From positions 1 through 21,425 of IMG/VR virus record IMGVR_UViG_3300030838_000223: DNA of 21,425 nucleotides; one strand, written 5' to 3'. Position numbers and translations under genes: made by a program. Below, in pieces: positions 5,170 through 20,694 of this stretch. The notes under the pieces are model-generated. The model did not search any database. It was not told where the DNA came from and saw only the letters and a list, made by a program, of their open reading frames with translations. Each line of letters opens with the position of its first letter. The first letter of the stretch is position 1. The DNA is from a virus.

Positions 5170-5189
5170 AACAAAATATATAAAATAAC
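5170..5189 (+). repeat. AT-box copy A
   Basis: AACAAAATATATAAAATAAC is identical over 20 bp to the box read leftward at 15875-15856. No convincing -35/-10 pair follows it. It lies in the leader upstream of the GIY-YIG gene. Confidence 0.7.
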
Positions 5190-5211
5190 AAATAATCAAT
5201 AAGTTAATTCT

Positions 5212-5344
5212 ATTTGTGAGTCTGAAAGACGAAACAAAAGAACAACCGATAGGGCGTTAGGTGTATTCACTAAAGTTTGGGAGTATATGAGTCTTGTAGC
5301 TAACGCTACGCTTTTCTTCCCTTACGGTCAGAGGATATAAATTT
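5212..5344 (+). other. Structured, relatively G+C-rich intergenic region (possible RNA)
   Basis: No gene is seen between 5102 and 5377. The middle is richer in G+C than its surroundings and contains short hairpins: GTCT/AGAC near 5220-5232, TTAG-GTG/CACTAA near 5256-5272 and GTAGC-TAAC-GCTAC near 5297-5310. It could be the leader of the GIY-YIG gene or a remnant of an intron-like element. I could not match the conserved core of a group I intron. Confidence 0.35.
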
Positions 5345-5377
5345 AATAAAATATATTATATTATGGAGTGAGTTAAA

Positions 5378-5680
5378 ATGGGATATGTTTATATAATTAA
5401 AAATGAAAATAAATCTACTGATGATAAAATTTATATAAAAATAGGGGCAAGTAAGGATTACATAAAAAGAATAAATCAAATAAAGAGTTCATTTAAGTTC
5501 AATGGTAATTTAGATGAACTTTTTTTATATAAAGTTATTGAGTGTAAATCCTATTTGCGTTTGGAGAAAATGATCCATCAAATTATGTCCAGTCGAAAAA
5601 TAACTAATGAATGGTTTCTTACGGAGGAAAGTTTCTTAGAAGGTAGAATTTCGATGGTTGATTTATCAAGATATAATTAA
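5378..5680 (+). CDS. T5orf172/Mug113-type GIY-YIG superfamily protein
   Basis: This 100-aa protein starts GYVYIIKN and has YIKIGAS about 15 residues later, the two-strand GIY-YIG hallmark (Y3/Y5 and I23-G24). R31 follows in the first helix, then the acidic helix RLEKMIHQ (E63, H67) and NEWF at 77-80. This order matches the T5orf172 subgroup of the GIY-YIG nuclease superfamily, found as small free-standing phage proteins or as domains. Members are presumed DNA nucleases or binding proteins, and some resemble homing endonucleases. GGAGTGAG gives a good ribosome site. It sits after a structured non-coding stretch, which would fit a mobile-intron origin but does not prove it. Confidence 0.75.
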   Translation: MGYVYIIKNENKSTDDKIYIKIGASKDYIKRINQIKSSFKFNGNLDELFLYKVIECKSYLRLEKMIHQIMSSRKITNEWFLTEESFLEGRISMVDLSRYN

Positions 5681-5700
5681 AATAAAATATATAAAATAAC
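5681..5700 (+). repeat. AT-box copy B
   Basis: AATAAAATATATAAAATAAC begins right after the GIY-YIG stop codon and is followed within 5 bp by the AAGGAGG ribosome site of the next gene. It matches the leftward box at 19014-18995 exactly. Confidence 0.7.
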
Positions 5701-5719
5701 TAATAAGGAGGTTAGAGAT

Positions 5720-5923
5720 ATGTTATATAATAATGAAATAGTACAAAAATATTTAAATAAACTTGATGGAATACAATTAGATAAAAATATTAAAACTGCC
5801 TACCCGACTAAAAATATAAGAAGTATTGATAATATTGATATTCATGAAGTTGAAAGATATGTTATTGCAAATATTAAATGGGAAAATACAATTGAAATGA
5901 GTGGTTGGGGAATGTCAATATAA
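5720..5923 (+). CDS. Small hypothetical protein
   Basis: This 67-aa soluble protein has a very strong AAGGAGG ribosome site 9 bp upstream. The sequence is mixed polar (VQKYLNKLDGIQLDKNIKTA) and ends in ENTIEMSGWGMSI. I see no membrane segment, cysteine motif or recognisable domain. It follows the GIY-YIG gene by 39 bp and probably shares its transcript. An 11-bp hairpin without a U-run (5939-5967) follows. The function is unknown. Confidence 0.6.
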   Translation: MLYNNEIVQKYLNKLDGIQLDKNIKTAYPTKNIRSIDNIDIHEVERYVIANIKWENTIEMSGWGMSI

Positions 5924-6001
5924 TATATATAAAATTAGAGAGATTAGAAAATAAAATTCTAGTCTCTACTTATCAATTGAAAGTCAATATCAGAATAAAT
6001 C

Positions 6002-6090
6002 ATTTGTTTTGTTTGGAATTATTTTCATAAAGGCTATTAATCGTAGCTTTTAAAAGATAATTTTTGCAAAGATTATACAACAAAACAAAT
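6002..6090 (+). promoter_or_regulatory. Nested inverted repeats in the leader of the tail operon
   Basis: ATTTGTTTTGTT (6002-6013) pairs with AACAAAACAAAT (6079-6090). Within the 65-bp spacer is a terminator-like hairpin with arms 6029-6036 and 6044-6051, ending in T-rich sequence. The outer helix ends 10 bp before the AAAGGAGG of the first tail gene. This could be an attenuator or a simple terminator with fortuitous outer pairing. Confidence 0.5.
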
Positions 6091-6114
6091 CATACACAAA
6101 AGGAGGAAATTATT

Positions 6115-6432
6115 ATGGCTAATATTTTAAAAGGAACTTTTGAAGCAACAAATTATAGTCCAAATGCCACAGTATATCAAATTACAATGACCATTGATAG
6201 TGATTTATCAGACATAAATGATATAAATTCATTACTTTGTAATAATGGATCACGTTATAAAACAATTGATGGATTAGCTTATATAAGCACAAATAGTACA
6301 TCTATAGTCTATTCACCTAATTTTTTATATATGTACAAATTTGTCGCTGAACAAGGAATATTAAATAGTTCTACAGGATACAAAGATGGTATATGGAGAT
6401 GTGTTGGAAAAAAAGGATATGTAACAACTTAG
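6115..6432 (+). CDS. Hypothetical protein, first gene of the tail-fibre operon
   Basis: This 105-aa protein starts at 6115 behind AAAGGAGG; the longer frame from a TTG at 6064 lacks a ribosome site. It begins MANILKGTFEATNYSPNATV and is rich in Ser, Thr, Asn and Tyr with alternating beta-type patterns. That composition is typical of a phage virion accessory or tail-associated protein. There is no signal peptide, membrane segment or recognised domain. It lies 16 bp before the first large fibre gene and is most likely co-transcribed and virion-associated. Confidence 0.6.
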   Translation: MANILKGTFEATNYSPNATVYQITMTIDSDLSDINDINSLLCNNGSRYKTIDGLAYISTNSTSIVYSPNFLYMYKFVAEQGILNSSTGYKDGIWRCVGKKGYVTT

Positions 6433-6448
6433 AAAGGAGGGATTTATA

Positions 6449-7747
6449 ATGGATTTTGAATCTTATATAATGGCAACTGGACATACTGATGAGGAAATTG
6501 AAAAAGTAACTCAGACAATAAATAATATTCAAACAGGTGGTGCAGATTTAAGTGGTTATCCAACTTCTACAGAAGTCAATAATTTACTTAATAATAAAGC
6601 ATCAAAAAATGGTAGTACATCTGAAAATTTCTCAGCTAAAGATATGACAGTAGTAGGTAATATAATACCATCATCAAATGGGACACAAAATATTGGTTCT
6701 CCAGACAATAGATTTAGTACTATTTATGTAAATGAAGCGAAACTATCTACAAATACTTTATATATTGGTGATACTCCTGTTATGGGAACGAGTGAAGATA
6801 CTATAATGATTAAAGCAGATACAGACCAAAGTATAACCATGAAAAGTTCTGGAGTTGGTACTACTAAGGTAATATCACAAAGTAATGTTGAATTATCTAC
6901 AAGTGGGATGAATGCAAATGTTAATGTACAAGCTACTGGAAGTGGTGCTAATGCAAATTTAAGTGCTACAAATGAGGTAAATCTTACAGGAGCAAATGTA
7001 AACATTCATGGATCTACAAATATTTCTGGTGGAGCAACAGTAGATAATCTTACTGTTAATGGCAATATAGTTATGAATGGAAGTGCTTTTACCGTTGAAG
7101 CAACTACAGTAAAAATTGAAGATAATATAATTGAATTAAATAAAAATGAAGTAGGAACAGGAGTTACTACTGGCAGGGCAGGATTAAAAATTAATAGGGG
7201 TGATTCTGATGCATATTTAATGATATTTGATGAAACTGATGATAATTTTAAGGTCGGAACAGACTCAACTTTAAAAATTATTTCTACGAAAGATTATGTT
7301 GATAGTCAAGATGCTAATAAAGTTGACAAAGTTATAGGAAAATCGCTTATATTAGATACGGAAATTACACGTTTAGCTTCGATAACTGGAACTAATACAG
7401 GTGATGAAACGCAAGCTACAATAAAGAATAAAATAGGCGTTGCTAACACTAGTCAAGATGGATATTTAACATCTATAGATTGGAACACTTTTAATAATAA
7501 AGCTATTCTTTATCCAACAACTGATGGAATATCTGCAATAAAAATAACCAAAGCTGATAAAAGTACTCCAATCGTGACAGTAGATACTACAAATTCAAAA
7601 GTAATTCTTAATGGAACTTTAAATTTAATACCAATAACAACGGCACAAAGAAATGCATTAACAGGATTGAGTAGTTGTTCAATAGTATTTGATTCTGATT
7701 TAGGTTCTTTAATGTGTTACGATGGTTCAATTTGGTATCAATTATAA
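6449..7747 (+). CDS. Phage tail-fibre/baseplate structural protein
   Basis: This 432-aa protein has a short N-terminal helical region, then repeated beta-rich segments typical of fibres: VVGNIIPSSNGTQNIGSPDN and FSTIYVNEAKL near residues 67-100. A Thr/Asn/Gly-rich beta stretch spans residues 110-205. A recognisable fibre module (IEDNIIELNKNEVGTG, AGLKINRGDSDAYLMIFDE) occupies about residues 225-270. It ends with a compact C-terminal cap (SSCSIVFDSDLGSLMCYDGS). Proteins of this make-up form trimeric tail fibres or structural wedges that contact the host. AAAGGAGG is 8 bp upstream. It precedes a second, larger fibre gene in the same operon. Confidence 0.75.
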   Translation: MDFESYIMATGHTDEEIEKVTQTINNIQTGGADLSGYPTSTEVNNLLNNKASKNGSTSENFSAKDMTVVGNIIPSSNGTQNIGSPDNRFSTIYVNEAKLSTNTLYIGDTPVMGTSEDTIMIKADTDQSITMKSSGVGTTKVISQSNVELSTSGMNANVNVQATGSGANANLSATNEVNLTGANVNIHGSTNISGGATVDNLTVNGNIVMNGSAFTVEATTVKIEDNIIELNKNEVGTGVTTGRAGLKINRGDSDAYLMIFDETDDNFKVGTDSTLKIISTKDYVDSQDANKVDKVIGKSLILDTEITRLASITGTNTGDETQATIKNKIGVANTSQDGYLTSIDWNTFNNKAILYPTTDGISAIKITKADKSTPIVTVDTTNSKVILNGTLNLIPITTAQRNALTGLSSCSIVFDSDLGSLMCYDGSIWYQL

Positions 7748-7777
7748 AAAATAAAATACAAAGGAGAATGATATAAC

Positions 7778-9859
7778 ATGAGTTTATTTCCTTCAAGCCC
7801 AATAATGGGACAAACAACTACTCTAAATGGGAATTCATATTCATATGATTCTACAAAAGGATGGTTAAAACAAGCATCAACAACAAGTTCAATAATAAAT
7901 GATAGTGCAACAAGTTCTACTACAAATACATATTCAATAGATAAAATAAAATCATTAATAAGTAGTGGTACAAGTTTTGAGGTAGTATCAAGTTTGCCAA
8001 GTTCTCCAAGTTCTCTTAAAATATACATTTTAAACTCAAATGGTACTTATACAATGAATATATACGACACTTCTTGGCATACAATAAGTGGTTCAAGTAG
8101 TGGCACTTCATTTACAGATTGGGCAAGTTCAACAAATTATACGATATTAACATCATTTGTACTAGAAAATAATAATTTATATAGGTGTATAACTACTCAT
8201 ACTAGTGGAACAAGTTTTTCAGATAATAGTAGTTATTGGACTATTATAGGACATATCCATGCAAATAAAACTTATTTAGATAAAATAGGTGAAGATTCTA
8301 TTACTGGAGAAATGAAATATAATGGACAATCTGTAATAAATGCTGATGTTTCAAACAGAAGTAACGGGAAGGTAGTTACATTTAATTCTACGACTGGTAA
8401 AAATGAATATGCGACAGTTACGGTGGCTGGCATTGTTGGTAGTTCTACTATTACAACAGCAGGTGAAAATATTACTATAGCATCAGGTTCAGAACAAACT
8501 TTTGATCATCCAACAAGTACAAATATAGTTGTCAGTATAGAAGAACAGATTTCTGGTTCAAGCGTAACAGATACTCATGTGGATTTTTCAGATTCTAGTA
8601 AATACACTTTACAAGATAGTGTTAATATTAATACCATTAATAACAAATTATCACTAATAAATGGTGGAATAGATGTAAATACTTTATTACTACTTCATTT
8701 TAATGGAAGTGTAACTGATTCATCGTTGATACCAAATACAGTAACTAATAATGGAGTAACTTATAATAATACTGCTCAAAAATTCGGAACTAATTGTGCA
8801 AATTTTAGTGGAAGTTCTCAATATATGTATATCAATAGTAATAGTAAATTTAATTTTGGAACAAGTGATTTTACTATAGATTTTTGGTTAAAATATGGAG
8901 GAACTAGGATTACTAATTATCCAACTATTTTAAATACAAGTATGACTGGTTGGGTTGCTGGTGTTATGAGTTTAATGGTTGATACTACAGATGCTTCAAG
9001 TAAAGTTAGTTTGGCTTGTTTTTCTGCTACAGGAATAGCTACATCAAGTTTGATCTTTAATAATACATGGATGCATGTTGCTTTTGTTATGTCTAATCAT
9101 ACCCTTAGTATATATATAAATGGAGTTTTAAATACTAGTGTAAGTAATTGCACTGGAAATTATAATTTTGATTATAGTGCTGGTGGATTATTTATGGGAA
9201 GGAAACCATCAGAAAGTTTATATTTTAATGGTCAATTAGATGAATTTCGTATAAGCAATATTGCAAGATGGACTTCTAATTTTACTCCTAAGAATATGGA
9301 ATATTATCAATATTTAAACACTACTCCATTATATGCTAAAACAACTGGGAGTAGTGACTATAGTTTAACAACAATAGATACAATTACATCTTTAACAATA
9401 CCAGTAACTCTACCAAGTTCTAATTCTACTTGTAAGTGTTTAGTATCATTTGATAATGGAGTTAATTGGCTATATAGAAGTTCTGGGGTATGGTATAAAT
9501 ATACTGGAGATTTATCTATATCTTGGACAAGTTCAAATATAAATACTGACTTACAAACATATTTTACGAATATAAGTTTGATAACTTTAACTAGTGATTT
9601 AAGTAGTCTAGGGATTGTACCCGTGGCATTAGATTTTGCTTTTCAACTCAATACCCTGTCAAGTAATGAAACACCAACTATAGGTGCAATTACAATGGTT
9701 TATGTTAATTCATCACATAATGAATTTGCTAGTTATGGTAGTTATTCAGATAGTTACAGTACTTATGGAATCAAGAGAGTGTCAAATAGTCGATTGGCAG
9801 TAAAAAATAAATCCGCAGTTACTAAGATAATTAAAGTAAATATGGTGACTAGTGTATAA
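7778..9859 (+). CDS. Tail fibre/receptor-binding protein with a LamG-like lectin domain
   Basis: This 693-aa protein is built from modules. The N-terminus (MSLFPSSPIMGQTTTLNGNS) is a collar-like segment. Residues about 108-152 (WASSTNYT, LYRCITTHTSGT, YWTIIGH) resemble a small aromatic carbohydrate-binding module of the chitinase-C type. Residues about 305-510 form a concanavalin A/LamG-type fold: LLLLHFNGSVTDSS, FTIDFWLKYG, WMHVAFVMSN, LSIYINGVL and LDEFRISNIARW are the usual landmarks. A beta-rich C-terminal domain follows. The protein is thus a likely adhesin that binds cell-surface sugar during adsorption. AAGGAG precedes the start. Confidence 0.8.
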   Translation: MSLFPSSPIMGQTTTLNGNSYSYDSTKGWLKQASTTSSIINDSATSSTTNTYSIDKIKSLISSGTSFEVVSSLPSSPSSLKIYILNSNGTYTMNIYDTSWHTISGSSSGTSFTDWASSTNYTILTSFVLENNNLYRCITTHTSGTSFSDNSSYWTIIGHIHANKTYLDKIGEDSITGEMKYNGQSVINADVSNRSNGKVVTFNSTTGKNEYATVTVAGIVGSSTITTAGENITIASGSEQTFDHPTSTNIVVSIEEQISGSSVTDTHVDFSDSSKYTLQDSVNINTINNKLSLINGGIDVNTLLLLHFNGSVTDSSLIPNTVTNNGVTYNNTAQKFGTNCANFSGSSQYMYINSNSKFNFGTSDFTIDFWLKYGGTRITNYPTILNTSMTGWVAGVMSLMVDTTDASSKVSLACFSATGIATSSLIFNNTWMHVAFVMSNHTLSIYINGVLNTSVSNCTGNYNFDYSAGGLFMGRKPSESLYFNGQLDEFRISNIARWTSNFTPKNMEYYQYLNTTPLYAKTTGSSDYSLTTIDTITSLTIPVTLPSSNSTCKCLVSFDNGVNWLYRSSGVWYKYTGDLSISWTSSNINTDLQTYFTNISLITLTSDLSSLGIVPVALDFAFQLNTLSSNETPTIGAITMVYVNSSHNEFASYGSYSDSYSTYGIKRVSNSRLAVKNKSAVTKIIKVNMVTSV

Positions 9860-9894
9860 ATCAAATAAAGAAAGAAGAAAGTGGGTGATTAAAT

Positions 9895-10257
9895 ATGATA
9901 GCTTATATTTATTTTAAAGACAGTTTTAAAATAATCCAAAAAATAGATAATATAACTTCTATAGATGATAGTAATAAGAAAATACAAGGTGATTCAATTA
10001 TTATATTTGGAGATTCACAAGAATATATAATTTTAGAGTCAGATACTATCACTCTGAATATCGGAGATACTATTGATATTTCTAATTTGACAGATGCAAG
10101 AGATTATTTTATTAAAGGAAAAGAAATATGGTATCAAGAACAAATTAAAAAATCTAATGAAACTATATCAAAATTAAATCAGTTAACAGACATGTATGGA
10201 CAAACTTTAGATTCCATTATGTTTGATATATTACCAAATATTACAACAACAGTATAA
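9895..10257 (+). CDS. Hypothetical tail-operon protein
   Basis: This 120-aa protein has a beta-rich N-terminal two thirds (MIAYIYFKDSFKIIQKIDNI) and a helical segment from about residue 75 (EIWYQEQIKKSNETISKLNQ). It follows the receptor-binding gene by 35 bp with a ribosome site GAAAGTGGGTGA. Small proteins in this place, between fibre genes and an XkdX-sized protein, are common in Firmicute phages and may be fibre chaperones or caps. That role is inferred from position only. Confidence 0.6.
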   Translation: MIAYIYFKDSFKIIQKIDNITSIDDSNKKIQGDSIIIFGDSQEYIILESDTITLNIGDTIDISNLTDARDYFIKGKEIWYQEQIKKSNETISKLNQLTDMYGQTLDSIMFDILPNITTTV

Positions 10258-10272
10258 GAAGGAGGAAAGGAG

Positions 10273-10455
10273 ATGGAACAAATGAGCGCATTTATAGCTT
10301 TACAAATTATGAAACAAGCAGATATATCATTAGAAGATGGACAAGCTAAATATAGAGGATATTTTTTAACAACTAAATTATATGCGAAATATAAAGCAGA
10401 TTGCGATACTATTTTAACTACTGACGGATATTTAGACGTAATTGTAGAAGTTTAA
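10273..10455 (+). CDS. Small hypothetical protein at the end of the tail operon
   Basis: This 60-aa protein begins MEQMSAFIALQIMKQADISL and contains YRGYFLTTKLYAKYKADCDT. AGGAGG lies 7 bp before the ATG at 10273. A second site, AAAGGAG, would suit an alternative ATG at 10282. It holds the position of the short XkdX-like genes that close many Firmicute tail operons, but the sequence does not show the XkdX pattern. The operon terminator follows 10 bp later. Confidence 0.6.
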   Translation: MEQMSAFIALQIMKQADISLEDGQAKYRGYFLTTKLYAKYKADCDTILTTDGYLDVIVEV

Positions 10456-10465
10456 TAAAACAATA

Positions 10466-10516
10466 AAATAAAGTAGGAGAATAATATTGTGGGTTACTAT
10501 CTCCTACTTTATTTGT
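10466..10516 (+). terminator. Strong terminator of the tail operon
   Basis: AAATAAAGTAGGAGA (10466-10480) pairs perfectly with 10500-10514 over 15 bp around a 19-nt loop. The symmetrical A- and T-rich outer ends mean it could act in both directions, stopping rightward tail transcription and any leftward read-through. Confidence 0.85.
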
Positions 10517-10808
10517 GCAATTTAGTATTCAATTTATTATTATAACATATTAGTTTTCATAAGTCTACAAGCTGAAATATTTAATTTAAATTAATCTAAG
10601 CTTTAAATTATATACTTCATTGATATTTCTGAGTTCGATTTTAGATATCTGTCAGAATTGAAGTGTAAAAAGTTATTGTAAAAGAAATATTTTATAAAGA
10701 GTTTATGTCCTAGTAGATTTTGATTTGTTCTAGTAGCAACCGTTCGTCGGTTTTATACGGGCGATTGGAACGACTAGGGCGAAACGAAGGAACGAGAATA
10801 GATGAAAT
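10517..10808. other. Gene-free stretch with a folded G+C-rich segment
   Basis: No open frame with a ribosome site is present. Around 10620-10670 the words ACTTCA...TTCTGA and TCAGAA...GAAGT can pair. From about 10709, CCTAGT pairs with ACTAGG near 10775. Nested inside is CGTTC-GTCG pairing with CGAT-(TG)-GAACG. The G+C content there is far above the surrounding DNA. A structured RNA or protein-binding site is possible. Confidence 0.4.
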
Positions 10809-10836
10809 TAAAAAAGAGTAAGGTTAATCCCTACTC
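10809..10836 (-). terminator. Terminator of the ribbon-helix-helix gene
   Basis: Read leftward, 10836-10829 pairs with 10823-10816 (8 bp, one G-T) around a 5-nt loop. A run of U from 10815 to 10811 follows. It starts 4 bp after the stop codon of the leftward gene. Confidence 0.8.
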
Positions 10837-10840
10837 AATA

Positions 10841-11086
10841 CTAATATTCACGTAATCTTTTTAGAAAATCTCTTTTGATTTCTGGATGTGCCTCAAAGGT
10901 CAGCCATATGCAATCTAGTATTTTACTAATAGGACGTTTTTTAGATTTTGCTAATTTGTGCAAATCTTTATGAATATCCTCTCTAACACTTGTATGTAAA
11001 ACTAATCTAGTATCTTTAAGATATGAATATGAATTTTTCACTTTTTGACCATTAATATTAAAATATTCAGTATAAGGTATTTTCAT
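10841..11086 (-). CDS. Ribbon-helix-helix-like transcriptional regulator
   Basis: This 81-aa basic protein contains a beta strand followed by two helices (RLVLHTSVREDIHKDLHKLA, then KSKKRPISKILDCIWLTF). That is the pattern of CopG/Arc-type ribbon-helix-helix DNA-binding proteins, which bind palindromic or tandem operators as dimers. It is the only leftward gene in this part of the window and has its own promoter and terminator. The divergent promoter region contains two copies of a near-palindrome, so it probably represses itself and perhaps the RusA-recombinase operon. AAGGAGTG precedes the start. Confidence 0.7.
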   Translation of the reverse strand: MKIPYTEYFNINGQKVKNSYSYLKDTRLVLHTSVREDIHKDLHKLAKSKKRPISKILDCIWLTFEAHPEIKRDFLKRLREY

Positions 11087-11108
11087 AAATTAACACTCCT
11101 TTTAGTAT

Positions 11109-11138
11109 ATTTTAACATGAAATGAATAGCTTGGTCAA
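11109..11138 (-). promoter_or_regulatory. Promoter of the ribbon-helix-helix gene
   Basis: Read leftward: TTGACC at 11138-11133, an 18-bp spacer, then TAAAAT at 11114-11109. The palindrome at 11140-11155 begins 1 bp upstream of the -35 element, in operator position. Confidence 0.6.
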
Positions 11139-11139
11139 T

Positions 11140-11155
11140 TTATTTCGGGAAATGC
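11140..11155. promoter_or_regulatory. Putative operator 1
   Basis: TTATTTCGGGAAATGC is an imperfect palindrome (ATTTC-GG-GAAAT core) next to the -35 of the regulator's promoter. It matches 13 of 16 bases of the site at 11245-11260. Confidence 0.5.
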
Positions 11156-11244
11156 AGATTTATTACGTTGCCAATTTTATTATGTTGAGTAGATTAAAAG
11201 CATTGATATGAGTGTGATTAGATGGAATTGAAAAGTTTAAAATA

Positions 11245-11260
11245 TTATTTCGTGAAATAA
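11245..11260. promoter_or_regulatory. Putative operator 2
   Basis: TTATTTCGTGAAATAA has 7-bp inverted arms around GT. It lies on the RusA side of the divergent region, 105 bp from the first copy. Confidence 0.5.
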
Positions 11261-11281
11261 AAAATTAAAATTATTATTTTG

Positions 11282-11311
11282 AAGGTTTGTAATTTATACA
11301 AGCCTTTTTAT
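11282..11311 (+). terminator. Terminator-like hairpin before the RusA gene
   Basis: AAGGTTTGTA (11282-11291) pairs with TACAAGCCTT (11297-11306), one G-T, around ATTTA. A T-run follows. It lies in the leader of the RusA gene and could attenuate it. Confidence 0.75.
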
Positions 11312-11351
11312 TATGCCTAAAAATAAAATTAGAAAGGAATTGATAAATATT

Positions 11352-11912
11352 ATGGAAGAAAAAACTGTAGTCGTTGAATTCAATCAGGATAACTTAGATA
11401 GATTCTTGAATGAATATTATAAATCCCATAGAAAAGGAAAAAGTCTCATTGTGGAAAATCCTTTACCTAGAAGTATGAATAAGATACTCGTTATCACAAA
11501 TCGTATTGTTCAAAATAACCACAAAAAATATAGGGGTATGTATGTTGAATACGTTCTTAAAGAACTGGGACTTGAAAAATTGGGTATATGTGAAACAGAT
11601 TTAAAGCTTCAATTTGTATTCCCTACAAAAGTCCGTCACGATTTAGATAATATGCTTGGAGGAATGAAAGAAATCATGGATAAATTCAGTGATGTTGGAA
11701 TGATCCAAGATGATAATTATTCTATTATAAAATCAATATCAGCGAGTGCAAGTTATGAGAAGGATATCTCTAAATTAATAATGTCTTTCGAAAACTGTAA
11801 ATATGATGTACAAGCTACTCTAGAACAAATGGAAAAGGAACGAATTAAAAGAGAAAAACGTGAAAACACAATGTCTGAAAAGAAAAAAGCTAAGAAAAAG
11901 AAGGTGAAATAA
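11352..11912 (+). CDS. RusA-like Holliday-junction resolvase
   Basis: This 186-aa protein contains the RusA-family acidic signature: RHDLDNMLGGMKEIMDKF at about residues 95-112 (D97, D99, K106), followed by GMIQDDNY (D120, D121). The asparagine and lysine match the metal-binding pattern of RusA endodeoxyribonucleases, which cut four-way junctions as dimers. A Lys-rich tail (residues 162-186) extends beyond the usual length of about 120 and could bind DNA. An ATG at 11313 overlaps the tail of a terminator, whereas AAAGGAATTG precedes 11352, so the latter is chosen. Its neighbour is a tyrosine recombinase. It probably resolves recombination intermediates before packaging. Confidence 0.8.
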   Translation: MEEKTVVVEFNQDNLDRFLNEYYKSHRKGKSLIVENPLPRSMNKILVITNRIVQNNHKKYRGMYVEYVLKELGLEKLGICETDLKLQFVFPTKVRHDLDNMLGGMKEIMDKFSDVGMIQDDNYSIIKSISASASYEKDISKLIMSFENCKYDVQATLEQMEKERIKREKRENTMSEKKKAKKKKVK

Positions 11913-11915
11913 ATT

Positions 11916-14109: not shown

Positions 14110-14115
14110 TACTTT

Positions 14116-14187
14116 AATAAGGGACTATTAATAAATTTATTGCACTATAATGTGTTTTACTTTTATTAATAGTCCCTTATTTTTTCG
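14116..14187 (+). terminator. 20-bp perfect hairpin between convergent operons
   Basis: AATAAGGGACTATTAATAAA (14116-14135) is the exact reverse complement of 14162-14181, and T-rich sequence follows on the plus strand. The spacer is 26 bp. It probably ends rightward transcription from the holin operon and may also stop leftward transcription. A partial third copy (ACTTTATTAATAGT) lies at 14193-14206. Confidence 0.75.
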
Positions 14188-14246
14188 TTTTTTACTTTAT
14201 TAATAGTTGTTAAATTTATCCTTTTAATGAAATGCTGAATTATTAG

Positions 14247-14528
14247 TTATTTGCTTTTAATTTCAATTTCAGTATTAGGTTTAATCCATATTAATTGTGA
14301 ACCGTCAGCATATTCATATCCAGCATATGGTCTACCATCTTTTCTTTCTTCTTGTTCTTGTTTTAACTTATAACACACTGCATACATACATTCATCTGAT
14401 ATATCTTTGCTTTTATCTGACCATATAGATAAATGGGCATTATCTTTTATAGGTTTTGATTTTCCAATAAAAATTGAATTTGATAATAATGAATTTCCAA
14501 TGTGAATATCTTCCCACTTAATTCCCAT
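14247..14528 (-). CDS. Hypothetical phage protein, possibly DUF7446-like
   Basis: This 93-aa protein begins MGIKWEDIHIGNSLLSNSIF and continues with KDNAHLSIWSDKSKDISDEC, MYAVCYKL and a charged C-terminus. The arrangement 'novel start, small beta hairpin, W-S-D-K, DISDE, helix' recalls a family of small phage proteins (DUF7446), but I make that match from memory and weakly. It is the last gene of a leftward operon, 1 bp from the ThyX-like gene before it. The function is unknown. Confidence 0.6.
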   Translation of the reverse strand: MGIKWEDIHIGNSLLSNSIFIGKSKPIKDNAHLSIWSDKSKDISDECMYAVCYKLKQEQEERKDGRPYAGYEYADGSQLIWIKPNTEIEIKSK

Positions 14529-14529
14529 A

Positions 14530-15228
14530 TTACTTATTCTCCTTTAAGCACAATTCTTTAAATATTGGTAATTCATTACATAACCTTAAAAAGTCTTTAG
14601 ACCACGAATACATTTTATGAAATTCTCTCTGATTATATATAGTCTTAAATTGTAAATAGTTACTGTCTACCCTTCTGCATAATTCAATTCCTTCGGGGCA
14701 ATTATGAATTACTCTATGAAAATTATCTTGAGTTGGATTGGCATTGTATTCTATTATCTTCTCATTTAATATATCTATTTGTCTTTTATCTGTATATTCG
14801 CTAAATAGCCCATCATATAAATCGAATTTAGTTAAACAATGCATTGTACTCATACTAGATACAGTATCTTGATGGTGATATCTTTCCCACTGTAACCAAA
14901 AACTTTGATCTGCTTCAATATTTACTGCTATCATAATTCCTTTTGTGGCACAATCATGACCAGAACTTGGTTTAGCATTGCCAAGATTTATTATTCTCTT
15001 AAGATGTCTTGTTGCTTTAATAATTCCTTCACTGAATTTTTCTAACTGTTCTTTAGGGAGTTTAGATAATTCTAACATTTTTTCTTTCCCGTAAAGTTGT
15101 ATTACACCTCTTAAATTCAGCACCTCATTTTCAAATTCTTGTGGTGTAAATTTCTTTTTTAACATTGGTAGTGCACTTGCTATTATACTTTCTTCTAAGT
15201 CATAAACTCTTAATCCGTAATATTTCAT
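14530..15228 (-). CDS. ThyX-like phage protein
   Basis: This 232-aa protein has a helical N-terminal half, then SGHDCATKGIMIAVNIEADQ, FWLQWERYHHQDTVSSMSTM and, near the end, SNYLQFKTIYNQREFHKMYS. The middle motif resembles the flavin-dependent thymidylate synthase signature RHRxxSxNExSxRY in position and in the Arg-x-His...Ser...Ser pattern. The last motif recalls the ThyX 'N-R-L-F-LR' helix. Key residues differ, so it may be a divergent or non-catalytic relative that binds a nucleotide or flavin. It sits in a leftward operon of small phage proteins. I would call it ThyX-like rather than ThyX. Confidence 0.45.
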   Translation of the reverse strand: MKYYGLRVYDLEESIIASALPMLKKKFTPQEFENEVLNLRGVIQLYGKEKMLELSKLPKEQLEKFSEGIIKATRHLKRIINLGNAKPSSGHDCATKGIMIAVNIEADQSFWLQWERYHHQDTVSSMSTMHCLTKFDLYDGLFSEYTDKRQIDILNEKIIEYNANPTQDNFHRVIHNCPEGIELCRRVDSNYLQFKTIYNQREFHKMYSWSKDFLRLCNELPIFKELCLKENK

Positions 15229-15259
15229 ATTTCAAATTCTCCTTGTTATATATATTTTA

Positions 15260-15592
15260 TTATTTACTAAATTTATAATTTTTTTCACTTTCTAAATAAG
15301 CTTCTTCCATTTCATCTGGATCATATCCGCAATCTTCAATTTTATTTAAAAACTTATCTGTTAAATCTAAGTCTTCTAAAGAAGGATTTAATACTATTAA
15401 TTTACCATTTTCAAAACTTATACCTTCTGTATTCTCAATCATATTATGTAGTAACGTGAAGCCTTCTTTCCATTCGTCTCTTTCGGATTTTAATGTCATA
15501 ACTTCTTGTCTAAGTTTGTCCATTTCAGCCATCATTTCTAATATTGTTGGATTTACTATTTCGGTTTCATTTTTTAAACATGAATTATTCAT
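15260..15592 (-). CDS. Small coiled-coil hypothetical protein
   Basis: This 110-aa acidic protein contains a coiled coil at about residues 18-45 (EMMAEMDKLRQEVMTLKSER). An acidic tail follows (DCGYDPDEMEEAYLESEKNY). GAGGGG precedes the ATG. It is the second gene of the leftward operon that starts at the promoter near 15854 and is followed by the ThyX-like gene after 31 bp. I recognise no family. Confidence 0.6.
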   Translation of the reverse strand: MNNSCLKNETEIVNPTILEMMAEMDKLRQEVMTLKSERDEWKEGFTLLHNMIENTEGISFENGKLIVLNPSLEDLDLTDKFLNKIEDCGYDPDEMEEAYLESEKNYKFSK

Positions 15593-15628
15593 TTTTAATA
15601 CAACCCCTCATACTTTATTATTTGTCAG

Positions 15629-15799
15629 TTATTTCTTTTCTAATTGAACACTATACCACCATCTATTCAATCTTTTAACATTTAAATTAAATACTTTTGT
15701 TATTTTAGTATCCTTTATATATTCTTCTAATATTGTATCTCTCATTTTAAATGTGTTTGTCGCTAGAGATATTACTTTTAAATTGTTATTTAAATTCAT
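15629..15799 (-). CDS. Small basic hypothetical protein
   Basis: This 56-aa frame starts MNLNNNLKVISLATNTFKMR and ends VKRLNRWWYSVQLEKK. AGGA stands 7 bp before the ATG, and the gene is the first one downstream of a perfect consensus promoter. Those two facts are the main support. It is basic and contains a WWY cluster near its end. There is no recognised domain. Confidence 0.6.
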   Translation of the reverse strand: MNLNNNLKVISLATNTFKMRDTILEEYIKDTKITKVFNLNVKRLNRWWYSVQLEKK

Positions 15800-15825
15800 T
15801 TGTATTCCTCATCTTCCATAATTTA

Positions 15826-15875
15826 ATTATAGTACATATGTTTGCGTGTGTCAATGTTATTTTATATATTTTGTT
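15826..15875 (-). promoter_or_regulatory. Consensus promoter preceded by AT-box copy C
   Basis: Read leftward: AACAAAATATATAAAATAAC (15875-15856), then TTGACA (15854-15849), a 17-bp spacer and TATAAT (15831-15826). Both hexamers are perfect. It drives the operon from the 56-aa gene to the 93-aa gene. Confidence 0.85.
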
Positions 15876-15899
15876 TTATACTCATTGTAGAATAACATG

Positions 15900-16175
15900 T
15901 TAAATTAATTTCCAATCTCTATCCCTTATCTCACTTACATAAACTGCTTCTGAATATTTGCATACATGATACCCTAATAGTTTTATCCATGCCTTTTCCT
16001 CATTATATGCTTCAATTTCTTTTATTTCTTTATCATCTATATCTTTAAATTTAAATAACATATTTTCATTTCTAAGAAAAAGTTTGCACTCTTCTGCCTT
16101 ATTTTCTTCATAGCCATAGTTGAATACTTCTGTATCACAACCTAAACAATACTTTTTACAATCTACACATTTCAT
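15900..16175 (-). CDS. Small protein with a cysteine-rich N-terminus
   Basis: This 91-aa protein starts MKCVDCKKYCLGCDTEVF. C3, C6, C10 and C13, with C30 (EECKLF), suggest a bound metal, most likely zinc. The remainder is a mixed alpha/beta domain (IKEIEAYNEEKAWIKLLGYH) that resembles nothing I can name. GGAGG precedes the start by 7 bp. It is the last gene of the ligase operon, ending just before the next promoter. Confidence 0.6.
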   Translation of the reverse strand: MKCVDCKKYCLGCDTEVFNYGYEENKAEECKLFLRNENMLFKFKDIDDKEIKEIEAYNEEKAWIKLLGYHVCKYSEAVYVSEIRDRDWKLI

Positions 16176-16286
16176 TTTTTTACCTCCATTTATTATATAA
16201 TATTTACATATTAAGTTTTAATTTCCACATAAAATTTCAGTTTTACTTGGACTTTCTATCTCGCAAACCTAGTGATAGAGCCATTA

Positions 16287-16529
16287 TTATTTTATTTCAA
16301 TTTGTCCAAATTTTAAATTTTCACAAATTGCAAGATTCAATCCACATATCATAGTTTCTTTATTTAAATATCCTTCTGGTTCTCTTGAAGTTTTGTAAGG
16401 TAAATCACTCTCTATGGCGTTATAAGTTTCTTTATTTATAATACAATATTTGGCATTTGGTGTCATTGTTTTGATTTCACTTATTTTATCTATATCAATT
16501 TTTATAATACTATCTGGATTCCCAAACAT
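16287..16529 (-). CDS. Small hypothetical protein
   Basis: This 80-aa protein starts MFGNPDSIIKIDIDKISEIK. Its ribosome site, AAGGAGG, lies inside the coding end of the upstream 36-aa gene, and only one base separates that stop codon from this ATG. A longer frame from 16586 ignores this site. The sequence has a beta-rich first half and a helical second half and no known motif. It is translationally coupled to the 36-aa membrane peptide. Confidence 0.65.
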   Translation of the reverse strand: MFGNPDSIIKIDIDKISEIKTMTPNAKYCIINKETYNAIESDLPYKTSREPEGYLNKETMICGLNLAICENLKFGQIEIK

Positions 16530-16530
16530 T

Positions 16531-16641
16531 TTATAATTCCTCCTTATCATAATATTCATTGGAACTTGCACCCTTTGTAAATGCAAGTATTCCTAATATC
16601 ATTATTATCCAAACTATAAATCCTATAACTATTTTCAGCAT
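16531..16641 (-). CDS. 36-aa single-pass membrane microprotein
   Basis: The frame encodes MLKIVIGFIVWIIMILGILA followed by FTKGASSNEYYDKEEL. Residues 2-21 form one clear membrane segment with a short polar C-terminal tail. GAAGTGAT is a fair ribosome site. Its last codons carry the AAGGAGG of the next gene, which supports real translation. Its role is unknown; phage microproteins of this kind include superinfection-exclusion and lysis modulators. Confidence 0.55.
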   Translation of the reverse strand: MLKIVIGFIVWIIMILGILAFTKGASSNEYYDKEEL

Positions 16642-16674
16642 ATATCAAATCACTTCTTTCTTTATGTATTTTAA

Positions 16675-18723
16675 TTAATTAGCTTTAATTATTTGTAAGA
16701 ACTCGTCTTCATTTAACATTGTGATATTTGCTTTCCCATTTGCATTATCTTCTATGGCTTTTTTATCTTTGCTACTCTTAGTCATATCATGTCCACAAAT
16801 CAAGTAATCAAGTTTTACTTTGTAGTCCGTTTCTACAATAGCACCTAAGCTTTCAAGTAATTCCTTTAATTCTTGTTTCTTCATGTTGAACCCACCTGTA
16901 GGATATACCTTTTTACCTTGGAATTGTGTTTGTTGAGTTACTATAATTTCTTTTGGTTTATCTTCAATGAATGTTAAATAGCTAATTATCTCTTTTACCT
17001 TTTCAATTGTTTGTTTGTCACTAAAATATTCTACCATTGACTCAGATATTTTCTCTCCAACATCTTCAATTTTTAATAGTTCACTTTCACTAGTTAATAT
17101 AATCCTATCTAAATTATTATTAAAATGTAAACATATATTTTTAGATGCTTTCTTTCCTACATTTTCTATTCCAAGTGAATATAAGAAGCTACTTAACTTA
17201 CACTTTTTACTTTTCTCAATAGCTTTAATTAAATTATCATACTTTTTAATTCCAAACTTAGGCAAGTTAATTAATTGTTCTTTATATTGTTCTAGATTAT
17301 AAATATCTTTAATATATTTTATAAATCCTTTATCTATGAATTGTTTTAATGTTTCCTTAGATAATCCTACAATGTTAATGGCTTCCTTTCCAACATAATG
17401 AGATAAGGCTTGTATTAATCTATCAGGGCAACTTTCATTAGTACAGAATAAGAATCTAGTTGTTTTAGGTTGTCTTATCTCTACAGGGCTATTACAACAT
17501 GGACAAACAGTAGGATATATTATATCTCTAATATCTTCATTATTTAAACTTTCATCAACTATTCCTGTCACTTCTGGAATTACATCATTGCTTCTTCTAA
17601 TAAAAGCTTCTATATTAATTTTAATTCTTTTTCTTTCAATGTCATCGATATTATTTAATGTTGCTTGTTTAACTGTAACTCCCATCAATTCAACTGGTTC
17701 TGTTTTTGCTTTTGGGTTTAATCTGCCATATCGGCTGACATTCCATTCAACATCTAAGATTTTAGTTGTTGTCTCCTCAGCTTCATATTTGTAAGCTAGA
17801 GAAAAACGTGGGAATTTTTCAGTATATCCCATAGCTTGTCTAGTGGCTAAATCATTTATTGCGATAACTGCACCATCTATATCATAAGGAAGATTTGGTC
17901 TTTGTTCCTCTATTTTATCTATGGCTTGAATAATCTCTTCATATGTATTACAAATAGAATAATCTGTTACTGGTAATCCCCTATAAGACATATAATCTAA
18001 TTGTTGTTGATAAGTTTGAAAGTCTTTTTCTATATTATTTAAATTATAAAAATATATCATTAATTTTCTTTTAGCTGTTTCCTTAGTATCTAAATTTCTA
18101 ATTGCTCCAGCTACACTATTACGACAGTTTTTTAATTGTTCGGTGTACTTTTTATTATATTCTATAAGAGCTTTATTTGGCATGATACATTCTCCATGTG
18201 GAGACATTAAATGTGTTAACTTATCATTATCTTTTAATTGTAAAGGAAGATTAATAATTGATTTTGATTGTTCTGTAACATTTTCTCCAATTATTCCATC
18301 TTTACCTCTTGTAGAGCCTTGTACAAAATTAATATTATCATAATCAGTTTCAACAGTGAGTCCATCATATTTTTTTGTTAGGACATATTTTAGTTGTGGT
18401 AATTTAGTAGTATGAGTGCTATTATATTCTTTTACAAAGTTATCATTTTTTATTAACCAATCCTTTATTTCTTCAAATGAATTTGATTTGTCTAATGACC
18501 ATAGTTTAGTTTTTCGTTCTACTTTTTCAAAGCCTTCTAATACTTCTCCACCAACTTTTTGAGTAGGGCTATTGGGTAATATTGTTTTAGTTTCTTTTTC
18601 TAATTTAACTAATTTGTCATATTCATCATTCCATTGTTTGTCTGATACTGAAGGATTATCCAAAGTATAGTATTCATAGTTCCATTTGTTTAGGTTGTCT
18701 ATCAACTTATTCATTTCTTCCAT
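16675..18723 (-). CDS. ligA: NAD+-dependent DNA ligase
   Basis: This 682-aa enzyme seals nicks using NAD+ and is complete by domain order. Residues 1-68 form the Ia/NMN-binding part (EYYTLDNPSVSDKQWNDEYD). The adenylation motif KYDG is at 118-121, with K118 as the nucleophile. STRGKDGIIGENVT (137-150), NSVAGAIRNLD (202-212) and YDIDGAVIAIND (280-291) are the usual nucleotidyltransferase motifs. The OB part has GRLNPKAKTEPVELMGVTVK. The zinc finger is C407, C410, C427, C432, then helix-hairpin-helix repeats (about 450-570) and a BRCT domain (601-678). It diverges from chromosomal LigA in several motifs, which fits a phage-borne copy. AAGGAG precedes the start. Confidence 0.93.
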   Translation of the reverse strand: MEEMNKLIDNLNKWNYEYYTLDNPSVSDKQWNDEYDKLVKLEKETKTILPNSPTQKVGGEVLEGFEKVERKTKLWSLDKSNSFEEIKDWLIKNDNFVKEYNSTHTTKLPQLKYVLTKKYDGLTVETDYDNINFVQGSTRGKDGIIGENVTEQSKSIINLPLQLKDNDKLTHLMSPHGECIMPNKALIEYNKKYTEQLKNCRNSVAGAIRNLDTKETAKRKLMIYFYNLNNIEKDFQTYQQQLDYMSYRGLPVTDYSICNTYEEIIQAIDKIEEQRPNLPYDIDGAVIAINDLATRQAMGYTEKFPRFSLAYKYEAEETTTKILDVEWNVSRYGRLNPKAKTEPVELMGVTVKQATLNNIDDIERKRIKINIEAFIRRSNDVIPEVTGIVDESLNNEDIRDIIYPTVCPCCNSPVEIRQPKTTRFLFCTNESCPDRLIQALSHYVGKEAINIVGLSKETLKQFIDKGFIKYIKDIYNLEQYKEQLINLPKFGIKKYDNLIKAIEKSKKCKLSSFLYSLGIENVGKKASKNICLHFNNNLDRIILTSESELLKIEDVGEKISESMVEYFSDKQTIEKVKEIISYLTFIEDKPKEIIVTQQTQFQGKKVYPTGGFNMKKQELKELLESLGAIVETDYKVKLDYLICGHDMTKSSKDKKAIEDNANGKANITMLNEDEFLQIIKAN

Positions 18724-18737
18724 TTTTCATTCTCCTT

Positions 18738-18757
18738 TATATTTTATATATTTTATT
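18738..18757 (-). repeat. AT-box copy before the ligase gene
   Basis: Read leftward, the core AATAAAATATATAAAAT (18757-18741) lies between the 41-aa gene and the ligase ribosome site AAAGGAG. No -35/-10 pair follows it. Confidence 0.6.
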
Positions 18758-18759
18758 AT

Positions 18760-18885
18760 TTAAACAACATCTTTTAATTCTTCTTTCTTTAGTTCTGATA
18801 TGTAGTAAGCAAAAGCCATTTCACCATATTCATCTGTAAAAGTCCAATTTCTATATTCATTATCTTTTTCATAACTTCTATCCAT
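18760..18885 (-). CDS. 41-aa hypothetical protein upstream of the ligase gene
   Basis: The frame reads MDRSYEKDNEYRNWTFTDEY and continues to GEMAFAYYISELKKEELKDVV. AAGGGAGATG gives a good ribosome site. It is the first gene downstream of the promoter at 18992 and 36 bp before the ligase start codon. It is acidic, with a helical end. I recognise no family. Confidence 0.6.
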   Translation of the reverse strand: MDRSYEKDNEYRNWTFTDEYGEMAFAYYISELKKEELKDVV

Positions 18886-18963
18886 TCTTAACATCTCCCT
18901 TTATTATTTATGTATATTTTATTATGATTGGAATTTTTGGAACTATTTACTGCCCTTATGTAT

Positions 18964-19014
18964 ATACTAATATATTTGGCTTTGTTTGTCAATAGTTATT
19001 TTATATATTTTATT
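18964..19014 (-). promoter_or_regulatory. Promoter preceded by AT-box copy D
   Basis: Read leftward: AATAAAATATATAAAATAAC (19014-18995), TTGACA (18992-18987), a 17-bp spacer and TAGTAT (18969-18964). The -10 is weaker than in the other two leftward promoters. It heads the 41-aa gene and ligase operon and abuts the stop of the methyltransferase gene. Confidence 0.7.
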
Positions 19015-19020
19015 GTTTAT

Positions 19021-20595
19021 TTAGTTTAATCTTAAATAATTATTAGATGATGCTTGGCTCAATGTTAGTGTATCATATTCATTAACCGTTAATCCAAATT
19101 CAGCTACAATCCTTTTTTCTTCTTCATTCATACTTGAATATGATTTTTGTCCAAAGTCTGGAGGTAAAGCATTTTTGCCCTTGCCTGCTAAAATGTTGAA
19201 TACCTGAAGATGATCTTTATTTTTATACTTGATATGTATAGTTTGTTTTTTGTAACAATCTAGAATGAAATGCTCTGTTTCTATATTCTTATCACATCTT
19301 TTAATTGCTTCTACTATTTCATTCGTATCTATATTATATTTTGTTCCTTTGATATTATTAAATATTATGTTCAAATCATTTAAGGTATCAGGAACTCTAT
19401 ACATATAACTTCCATAGTAACCTATAATTGATTTGTTATTTATCTTATAACAACTATTAGTCTTCCAGCCACTATATAAATAAATATTACTATTCCACAT
19501 AGTATCTGAATAATAAGATTTATATGTGAGGTCATCAAAAACTTTAGCAACAGTTTCCTCGTAGCTTTTAGGAATAGATTGCATTAACTCTTCATAAAAG
19601 TATCTAACATTCTCTATCGTAAAAGCTATATTTTGTTGTTTCTCCATATTGCATGAGAAATTATCTCTTAATTTACTTGGAAGTTTCTTTTTAAAATCTG
19701 TTTCTTCTATAAATTTATTCCAGTATTTTAATGTTAGGTGACATATAAAACCATTAACTGTGAGTTTATCAGCATGAACTTTGTCATCACTTATTCTTAT
19801 CATGTTATCTATTCCAAATCCATTAAGTAATTTACCAAGTCTCATTTGTTCTTTGAATAATTCTATTGAAGCATTCTTTATTATTTTGTATTCAAATACC
19901 AATTTTTCTAATTTATTCACAGAAGGCATTAGGGATTGTAAATTATCTACATGAATATCTGGATTTTCTCTTTTGAATTCTCTTTCAAACATGGTTTCCG
20001 TATCAGACATTGGAACATTTATATATACAAATGCAGTTTCAACATCTGTTTCTCTTTCTGAATTACTAAATGCATTATCTATATATTCTATATAACCATT
20101 ATATTGTTCTATAAGTTTTAATAATTGCTTTCGTTGGTTGCTATAAGGATTTTTAAGAGTTTCTGCATTTAGTAGGCATAGTATTTTGCCTCCCACCTTT
20201 TCCTGTATTTGAATTGCTCGTAAAAGATGGTCTGAACCTTTATCAAAAGGTGGATTCATTATTATTAAATCATAAAATCTAGGTGGGTCAAAAGTAAGAA
20301 AATCGTCCCATACTACATTATATTTTTGACCTCGAAGTAAATTGTTTAGATTTTCGTCAAATTCAATAACATCAAATTTCAAATAATCTTTTGCTTTTTT
20401 ACCATAAGCTATCATTCTTCTGCAATGTGTCTCATAATATTCTTCATAAGCTTGTACTATATCTGCTTTTCCACAACTAGGTTCTAATATGTACTGGATT
20501 GATGATAAATTATATTGTTCCTCATTTAATTTATCAAGCATTTTAAATACAAGTTCTTTAGGAGTCGGATAAAATTGGTCGTTATTTGTAAACAT
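19021..20595 (-). CDS. DNA (N6-adenine) methyltransferase with a DUF4942-like C-terminus
   Basis: This 524-aa protein has FYPTP at residues 8-12, a class I methyltransferase S-adenosyl-methionine loop variant (ILEPSCGKADI, 36-46), an acidic strand end (VIEFD, 76-80) and the catalytic NPPF at 114-117. NPPF points to exocyclic amino methylation, usually N6-adenine. The C-terminal half (about 290-480) carries features that I associate with DUF4942 (YLYSGWKTNSCYKINNKSII). Such phage enzymes may protect DNA from host restriction. The ATG at 20604 overlaps the AAAGGAG ribosome site, so 20595 is used. It stands alone behind a box-plus-promoter element; no cognate nuclease is visible. Confidence 0.85.
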   Translation of the reverse strand: MFTNNDQFYPTPKELVFKMLDKLNEEQYNLSSIQYILEPSCGKADIVQAYEEYYETHCRRMIAYGKKAKDYLKFDVIEFDENLNNLLRGQKYNVVWDDFLTFDPPRFYDLIIMNPPFDKGSDHLLRAIQIQEKVGGKILCLLNAETLKNPYSNQRKQLLKLIEQYNGYIEYIDNAFSNSERETDVETAFVYINVPMSDTETMFEREFKRENPDIHVDNLQSLMPSVNKLEKLVFEYKIIKNASIELFKEQMRLGKLLNGFGIDNMIRISDDKVHADKLTVNGFICHLTLKYWNKFIEETDFKKKLPSKLRDNFSCNMEKQQNIAFTIENVRYFYEELMQSIPKSYEETVAKVFDDLTYKSYYSDTMWNSNIYLYSGWKTNSCYKINNKSIIGYYGSYMYRVPDTLNDLNIIFNNIKGTKYNIDTNEIVEAIKRCDKNIETEHFILDCYKKQTIHIKYKNKDHLQVFNILAGKGKNALPPDFGQKSYSSMNEEEKRIVAEFGLTVNEYDTLTLSQASSNNYLRLN

Positions 20596-20645
20596 TATTA
20601 ACATCTCCTTTAATTTATTTTATTGGTAATTTAAACCTCTATTAC

Positions 20646-20694
20646 ATAATAGCACAAACTAAAATATTTGTAAAGGCATTTTATATATTTTGTT
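20646..20694 (-). promoter_or_regulatory. Promoter preceded by AT-box copy E
   Basis: Read leftward: AACAAAATATATAAAAT (20694-20678), TTTACA (20674-20669), a 17-bp spacer and TATTAT (20651-20646). It drives the methyltransferase gene. Confidence 0.8.

Follow-up and report, generated by a model that had tools for sequence, protein, structure and literature searches.

A box of 17 nt, composed of A and T only except for one Y position (exact form AAYAAAATATATAAAAT), was found to be dispersed along 21,425 nt of viral DNA (IMG/VR record IMGVR_UViG_3300030838_000223, positions 1 to 21,425; this whole stretch is called the window) and along further contigs assigned to the same phage. These boxes are probably operators bound by a repressor of the MrpR type, making them the predicted counterpart of SPBRE, the repeated element bound by the master repressor MrpR of phage SPbeta. 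We infer that the phage possesses such a repressor, that this protein binds the boxes and that it can act as a roadblock to transcription.

The window was found to match positions 1 to 21,425 of IMG/VR contig 3300028676_000016 (34,558 nt; G004 or G4) with one difference. Contig G015 overlaps G004 over 11,879 nt at 99.98%, and contig G016 overlaps G007 (G7), which is from the same sample as G004, over 13,095 nt at 99.99%; sample and box together suggest that the pairs G004/G015 and G007/G016 represent one phage. The four contigs, which may be incomplete, amount to approximately 140 kb without overlap. Locus L277 was identified as belonging to a sibling phage with the same box and not to be a missing piece of the window phage.

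Box copies in the window

Six exact copies of the box were identified in the window, all six intergenic and none inside predicted genes. Three of these, on the minus strand, are followed by promoter-like sequences. The copy at 15859-15875 ends 4 nt before the -35 of TTGACA-17-TATAAT (15826-15854, -35 starting at 15854), that at 18998-19014 ends 5 nt before the -35 of TTGACA-17-TAGTAT (18964-18992, -35 starting at 18992) upstream of the ligase gene, and that at 20678-20694 ends 3 nt before the -35 of TTTACA-17-TATTAT (20646-20674, -35 starting at 20674) upstream of gene 19021-20604 (DUF4942; methyltransferase-like by eye). Two copies are of a leader type, one on the minus strand at 18741-18757, immediately preceding the ribosome site of the gene for the NAD-dependent DNA ligase (16675-18723; ligase by Pfam), and one on the plus strand at 5681-5697 (AATAAAATATATAAAAT), between the stop of ORF 5378-5680 and the ribosome site of ORF 5720-5923. 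The remaining copy (AACAAAATATATAAAAT, in a 20-mer form ending in AAC), on the plus strand at 5170-5186, is preceded by ORF 4133-5101 and a long inverted repeat and followed by a non-coding stretch and gene 5378-5680 (T5orf172 domain), with no promoter directly after it by the rule applied. These sites agree with the six core positions given in an earlier note made from the sequence alone, which gave the minus-strand sites by their 5’ ends, and the measured gaps of 4, 5 and 3 nt bear out the 3 to 5 bp that it gave for the three leftward promoters. Its remark that several 20-bp copies are nearly identical also holds, with the 20-mer AAYAAAATATATAAAATAAC common to four of the six.

In 200 dinucleotide shuffles of the intergenic DNA of the window, the exact box occurred 0.005 times on average and at most once, so that equal frequency in shuffled sequence, named earlier as an outcome that would speak against the box, was not what was found. 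At up to three mismatches, 19 matches were identified across the window against 7.49 expected, the highest of 100 shuffles giving 15. The most frequent 12-mers and 15-mers of contigs G4 and G7 were likewise found to be pieces of the box, with the 15-mer AAAATATATAAAATA occurring 11 times against 0.029 expected. A control with the reversed pattern was uninformative, as AATAAAATATATAAAATAA is identical when read backwards. Promoter-like sites alone are not enriched in this A/T-rich window (157 against 150.2 expected), and the unusual feature is the distance between box and promoter only, not promoter frequency.

Three looser versions noted previously were also recovered, namely at 5345-5361 (plus strand, two mismatches) and 15245-15261 (minus strand, two mismatches), immediately 5’ of the ribosome sites of ORFs 5378-5680 and 14530-15228 respectively, and a weak box-like stretch at 18907-18923 (minus strand, three mismatches) that lies 5’ of a ribosome site and downstream of the promoter at 18992. 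Others, each with two mismatches and absent from the earlier list, were found at 5919-5935, at 18-34 and, on the minus strand 5’ of a ribosome site, at 20801-20817 (AACAAATTATATAAAAC). The label ‘ThyX-like’ given to one of the operons was not upheld, with Pfam assigning no family to 14533-15228.

Box placement across the phage

On the four contigs, 42 copies of the box were found at up to one mismatch, 36 of them outside predicted ORFs and six inside, which differs from the random placement within coding regions that had been named as refuting; both the ORF caller and the promoter rule are simple scripts, and some of the ‘coding’ boxes sit in short, doubtful ORFs. Eighteen copies are followed by a sigma-A-type promoter, ten are of the leader type and 14 are others. 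The -35 was found to start 3, 4 or 5 nt after the box, in sense orientation, for 15 of the 42 copies (15 of the 18 that are promoter-linked). Among intergenic 17-mers with at least four mismatches to the box, a promoter at this distance follows 529 of 40,080 (1.3%), and among A/T-rich non-box 17-mers 71 of 2,931 (2.4%). The motif search over more of the phage and its relatives, which the earlier note had proposed as a check, shows a fixed distance to the -35. In the ten leader-type copies the start codon is 14 to 34 nt away, with the box just before the ribosome site and no promoter between.

By the same rule 24 of the 42 copies are without a following promoter, three of these being promoter-linked in an inverted layout. 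A scan for this layout in the window phage and its relative G001 placed the -35 at -2/-1 or +9/+10 in 13 of 18 hits (no null was computed for this figure). These two classes are approximately one helical turn apart, and the remaining hits, mostly weak promoters, have other offsets. Inverted copies with a rule-based promoter comprise three in G016 and seven of nine minus-strand copies in G001.

The association with non-structural genes claimed previously is only roughly right: the structural block of contig G7 is itself flanked by boxes, although the interval 1619-18489 there is free of copies at up to one mismatch.

Comparison with SPBRE and MrpR

MrpR (YopR), the master repressor of SPbeta, is described as a monomer in solution with a tyrosine-recombinase fold that is without most catalytic residues, and as binding the 15-bp SPBRE at ten promoter regions by ChAP-seq; promoter activity of aimR and yosX is five-fold lower with MrpR, that of PaimR having been determined in vivo (PMC10516654). 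SPBRE was recovered de novo from the SPbeta sequence, a 14-mer occurring six times against 0.011 expected. Twelve SPbeta sites were found within one mismatch of SPBRE (AYAAAWAATATGTATA), and scan sites were identified at all ten MrpR-bound genes (that of yorM 25 nt inside the annotated start) and at one further place, 134078. The layouts identified by eye were 5’ of the -35 (aimR, yonX), within the spacer between -35 and -10, box-promoter-box (yonX) and before a ribosome site (yopV, yopM), with the aimR site placed by the scan 6 nt before a -35-like TTGACT.

Like SPBRE, the box of the window phage is a short, asymmetric, A/T-rich and dispersed element. Many mainly intergenic copies are present in one phage (6/6 exact copies in the window; 36/42 outside ORFs), situated at promoters and before ribosome sites (18 and ten of 42 copies), including the box-promoter-box arrangement. 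In this arrangement the copies lie approximately 65 bp apart, at 18993 and 19059 of G7, at 49927 and 49992 of relative G003 and at yonX of SPbeta. The phage also has a terminase related to that of SPbeta, and its relative G001 encodes an MrpR homologue behind a YopQ homologue. The two systems differ in spelling and in copy number, with 42 copies against 12 in SPbeta at up to one mismatch; moreover, several SPbeta copies lie by eye within the -35/-10 spacer, whereas window-phage copies lie 5’ of the -35, and the window-phage repressor is only predicted. The SPBRE sequence itself was not found in the window, and it is also absent or nearly so in six phi3T-type phages.

Box spelling and repressor type

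MrpR belongs to phrog_5830. The master repressor of phage phi3T is phi3T_97 (PMC10769878), and the phi3T protein was found to be 29.5% identical to MrpR. A counterpart box, AGAATAAAAATAAAA, was identified in phi3T, and in four of its five promoter-linked copies the -35 lies at 6 nt. This element resembles the window box in the fixed -35 offset of promoter-linked copies and in being spelled privately by a phage whose repressor has diverged; it differs from the window box in spelling, and was read here from sequence.

Six out of six phages with an SPbeta-type repressor possess 8-10 SPBRE and 1-4 phi3T boxes, and six out of six with a phi3T-type repressor possess 0-1 SPBRE and 15-18 phi3T boxes. 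Box type thus follows repressor type in 12/12 SPbeta-group phages, which were chosen from 44 records and include one laboratory hybrid, Hyb1. Six of 11 SPBRE-like sites have downstream DNA that can be aligned in phi3T (77-100% identical), and at five of these six the phi3T box replaces SPBRE (two with one mismatch, by eye); at the yorM site SPBRE is unchanged in phi3T, in identical DNA.

Words were also counted on nine of 11 MrpR-bearing named genomes (SPBc2 and eight others; FADO and phi36 were left out). Clear private words were found in SPBc2, phi3T, E3, LIBA6276, Sundance and a Staphylococcus phage, with a possible one in Perkons.

Relative G001 (140,944 nt) is 79-90% identical to the window phage over the methyltransferase-like, ligase and reductase genes, with the window box found there at no exact site and at one site with one mismatch. 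It was instead found to possess a private box, AAYAAATTAATA, in 77 exact copies, of which 68 are on the strand rich in coding sequence and 69 lie outside predicted ORFs, against approximately three in shuffles (0.6 intergenic, 2.3 coding); for 37 of the 77, a start codon lies no more than 35 nt from the box end. Relative G003 has seven copies of a private box of its own, AAATTAATGTATAAA. The ligase block is common to the window phage, G001 and G003, with box spelling that differs in each. Boxes also occupy corresponding positions at the loci for ligase, methyltransferase and topoisomerase, each phage with its own box there (one mismatch being allowed for G001 boxes); for example, boxes lie 69 and 180 nt upstream of one gene and 73 and 180 nt upstream of it in the counterpart phage. 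Two inverted copies beside gene 47460-49304 of G016 are inverted in G001 as well.

Across 1353-29700 of G001 (L064-L065), nine minus-strand boxes were observed among plus-strand genes, seven of them with the adjoining rule-based promoter. Several of these pair with a sense box before a ribosome site, leaving a promoter flanked by an inverted repeat.

Search for the repressor gene

G001 was found to encode an MrpR-family protein at 40944-42053 (phrog_5830, E 2e-17; hhalign 96%, E 1.5e-9), the gene of which immediately follows that of a YopQ homologue, as in SPbeta. An exact-peptide scan with this protein led to two G001-type contigs, and a profile search for an MrpR of the window phage among the collected loci gave no new gene. 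Comparison of the G001 genes at 35.4-75.2 kb with the window-phage contigs (E 1e-8) gave no match except for 44236-45831, which has several paralogues. An integrase-like ORF of the window (12125-13102) was considered as the repressor and rejected, as Pfam identifies it as a phage integrase and the catalytic residues R, HxxR, H and Y are present by eye.

Several results weigh against an MrpR-type repressor acting at the boxes. No MrpR-family gene was identified with phrog and own profiles in the four, possibly incomplete, contigs G004, G007, G015 and G016, and the repressor of the window phage is therefore predicted; the rejected integrase-like ORF did not match the MrpR profile (hhalign 0.6%). 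Although phrog_5830 was found in ten of 12 named phages searched, nine of the 12 had been picked for matching MrpR, and among three SPbeta-like phages picked by terminase the family was present in one (LIBA6276, but not LC76P1 or TR-TP1). The phrog_5830 profile matches in nine of 14 control genomes too, so that weak matches to it are non-specific. As the figure of ten in 12 rests largely on phages picked for MrpR, confidence is reduced both in this reading and in the broader one given below. SPBRE had no match in the window at up to two mismatches (1.61 expected), and the 12 SPbeta-group phages are close relatives and hence non-independent samples. KKP_3916, which possesses an MrpR homologue, showed no clear box family in the word count, and the top word of BcoS-136 contains TTGACA and may be mere promoters. 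A test for common box positions at orthologues of the window phage and G001, with one mismatch allowed in the 128 boxes of G001, was not significant (nine of 16 gene sides that bear a box, 20 of 46 of the others; P 0.40), although the nearest boxes on all nine shared sides (seven intergenic gaps) have the same relative orientation. Finally, a site just 5’ of the -35 in fixed phase is equally typical of activators and repressors.

Proposed mode of action

The suggestion in the earlier note of a specific regulator or phage factor, and not a generic UP element, is supported by the rarity of the box in shuffled sequence, its location outside predicted ORFs in 36 of 42 copies and its fixed spacing. 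The likely type of factor can be named because of the parallel with SPBRE and MrpR and the match between box and repressor in the 12 SPbeta-group phages. The dispersed, asymmetric operator would be bound by a phage-encoded master repressor with a tyrosine-recombinase fold and without catalytic activity, which would keep lytic operons off during lysogeny. Situated at or flanking a sigma-A promoter, the repressor would block initiation, a step supported, next to the -35, by the aimR case of SPbeta. On a leader box without a promoter it may act as a roadblock to readthrough transcription, an effect on elongation suggested by box placement and by analogy with the L5 stoperators (PMC9283540). Each phage lineage would have its own box spelling matched to its own repressor, and the box would therefore also be an immunity-type code. 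The MrpR-like protein of G001 would be expected to bind AAYAAATTAATARAA selectively over the window box and SPBRE, and phi3T_97 to bind its own box and not SPBRE.

Alternative explanations

The best surviving alternative, which we nevertheless regard as unlikely, is that the box binds a phage activator or dual regulator that touches RNA polymerase just upstream of the -35, with the leader copies being secondary. A fixed gap of 3-5 nt in sense orientation, seen for 15 of the 18 copies linked to a promoter, would suit such a protein, as would the inverted promoter-adjacent copies in classes approximately one helical turn apart (the 13 of 18 hits for which no null was computed). At the SPbeta aimR promoter, however, the scan places SPBRE in this very position and activity is five-fold repressed with MrpR (PMC10516654). 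Several SPbeta copies within the -35/-10 spacer (by eye) also fit repression, and the 24 of 42 copies without a promoter after them (three promoter-linked when inverted) likewise speak against this alternative.

It appears very unlikely that the box is an A+T-rich UP element recognized by the alpha subunit of the host’s RNA polymerase. The position of approximately -57 to -41 and the A/T-only composition, except at Y, would suit the alpha-CTD, and 18 of the 42 copies do precede a promoter. The box is not restricted to positions upstream of promoters, however, with 24 of 42 copies lacking one after them and ten lying immediately ahead of a ribosome site without an intervening promoter; inverted copies adjoin -35 elements, and the spelling is constant within a phage, changes between phages and follows repressor type.

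Boxes could also be recombination linkers, that is, short identical stretches at gene borders that allow cassette exchange, and their location at gene borders and the promoters flanked by two copies would agree with this. We consider it highly improbable, as a constant spacing to the -35 is unexpected for a linker and the sites compared between SPbeta and phi3T change their box while the alignable downstream DNA stays 77-100% identical. An action at the RNA level, with the box serving ribosome stand-by or the regulation of translation, had been suggested from copies before ribosome sites and would fit start codons within 35 nt of the box end (10/42 in the window phage, 37/77 in G001), but is neither supported nor needed and is the least credible of all, because the same box lies upstream of the -35, outside the transcript of that promoter, and inverted beside the -35, including inverted copies at orthologous places in two phages.

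Relation to stoperators and significance

Operators bound by an MrpR-type repressor would resemble in layout the stoperators of cluster A mycobacteriophages, in that many asymmetric sites lie at promoters and in short intergenic spaces. L5 stoperators are described as asymmetric and genome-wide, at promoters and in short intergenic spaces, and bound by a monomeric repressor; cluster A sites are 13-mers recognized by a two-domain (HTH/Stoperator) repressor, and L5 sites follow transcription, with reversal causing loss of repression (PMC9283540). The boxes described here differ in that orientation does not always follow transcription, as inverted promoter copies were found (the three in G016 and seven of nine on the minus strand of G001). 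Short repeats in gene leaders are reportedly also present in cluster K mycobacteriophages, as start-associated sequences.

A broader reading, held here as tentative and somewhat doubtful, is that SPbeta-like phages of Firmicutes, including phages that carry plasmid-type genes and have Clostridium-like hosts, may share a genome-wide, stoperator-like regime operated by a dead tyrosine recombinase. Tens of asymmetric boxes, spelled privately in each lineage, would block both initiation and elongation, and boxes throughout the genome would change along with the repressor type, so that their spelling could be read as an immunity code. If true, this would amount to convergence with the stoperators of mycobacteriophages by means of an unrelated protein fold. 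In the literature found, SPBRE with its recombinase-fold repressor is known for one phage, and among the matches listed, titles and the beginnings of abstracts in the open literature (also PMC8612738, PMC8270828 and PMC6550527, in the parts consulted) contained no report of SPBRE-like elements outside SPbeta. Private dispersed boxes in several relatives, with the tracking of repressor by box in 12/12, would turn a single-phage finding into a general, testable operator code. Immunity groups of large temperate Firmicutes phages would become readable from DNA, and a system would be available for studying how a genome-wide operator set changes together with its repressor. A further question raised is whether RNA polymerase can be halted during elongation by a dead recombinase.

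Other features of the phage and the window

Judged from its genes, the window phage may be a distant SPbeta-like phage with plasmid-type genes. Its terminase is 36-42% identical to YonF of SPbeta, in two pieces, and a search of G4 and G7 for the portal (YonE) gave no match at E 1e-3. The window likewise had no megablast match among named phages and plasmids, and comparison of the ligase with genome contigs gave two matches at 42% identity, by which the host was not identified. Gene products identified include the NAD-dependent ligase, the DUF4942 protein with an NPPF motif (methyltransferase-like by eye), an AntA domain protein and a lysozyme/amidase, with a ribonucleotide reductase, a topoisomerase subunit, a plasmid-type Rep and a TubZ-like GTPase recognized by eye. 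The Rep-like protein and TubZ-like GTPase are encoded at 31646-35762 of G016 (L111) and suggest possible maintenance of the prophage in plasmid form.

G018 (87,871 nt, L117-L121), a phage whose terminase shows 34% identity to that of G7, has a dispersed palindromic word around TTTACTATATAGTAAA (13-mer TTACTATATAGTA, 16 times against 0.003 expected), a different style of repeat. Two strong dispersed words were observed in BcoS-136 (L193-L200), namely ATCTGTTGACAAA and the palindromic TTTCACGTGAAAC/GTTTCACGTGAAA.

The inverted repeat before the first exact box of the window forms a perfect 15-bp stem (5086-5100 with 5155-5169). Folding of 5086-5370, which includes the non-coding stretch up to gene 5378-5680, was better than that of shuffles (z -2.7; 2/200 as good). 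No Rfam family was matched at gathering scores in the window or in L056, L057 and L058. A 70-nt part of this stretch, 5287-5353, recurs at 89% at 1552-1619 of contig G7, where it also runs into a box. Additionally, 3043-3095 of the window aligns with 555-610 of L057 (56 aligned columns, 82% identity), these stretches preceding the antirepressor-like gene 3110-3952 and the G7 ORF 647-1381 respectively.

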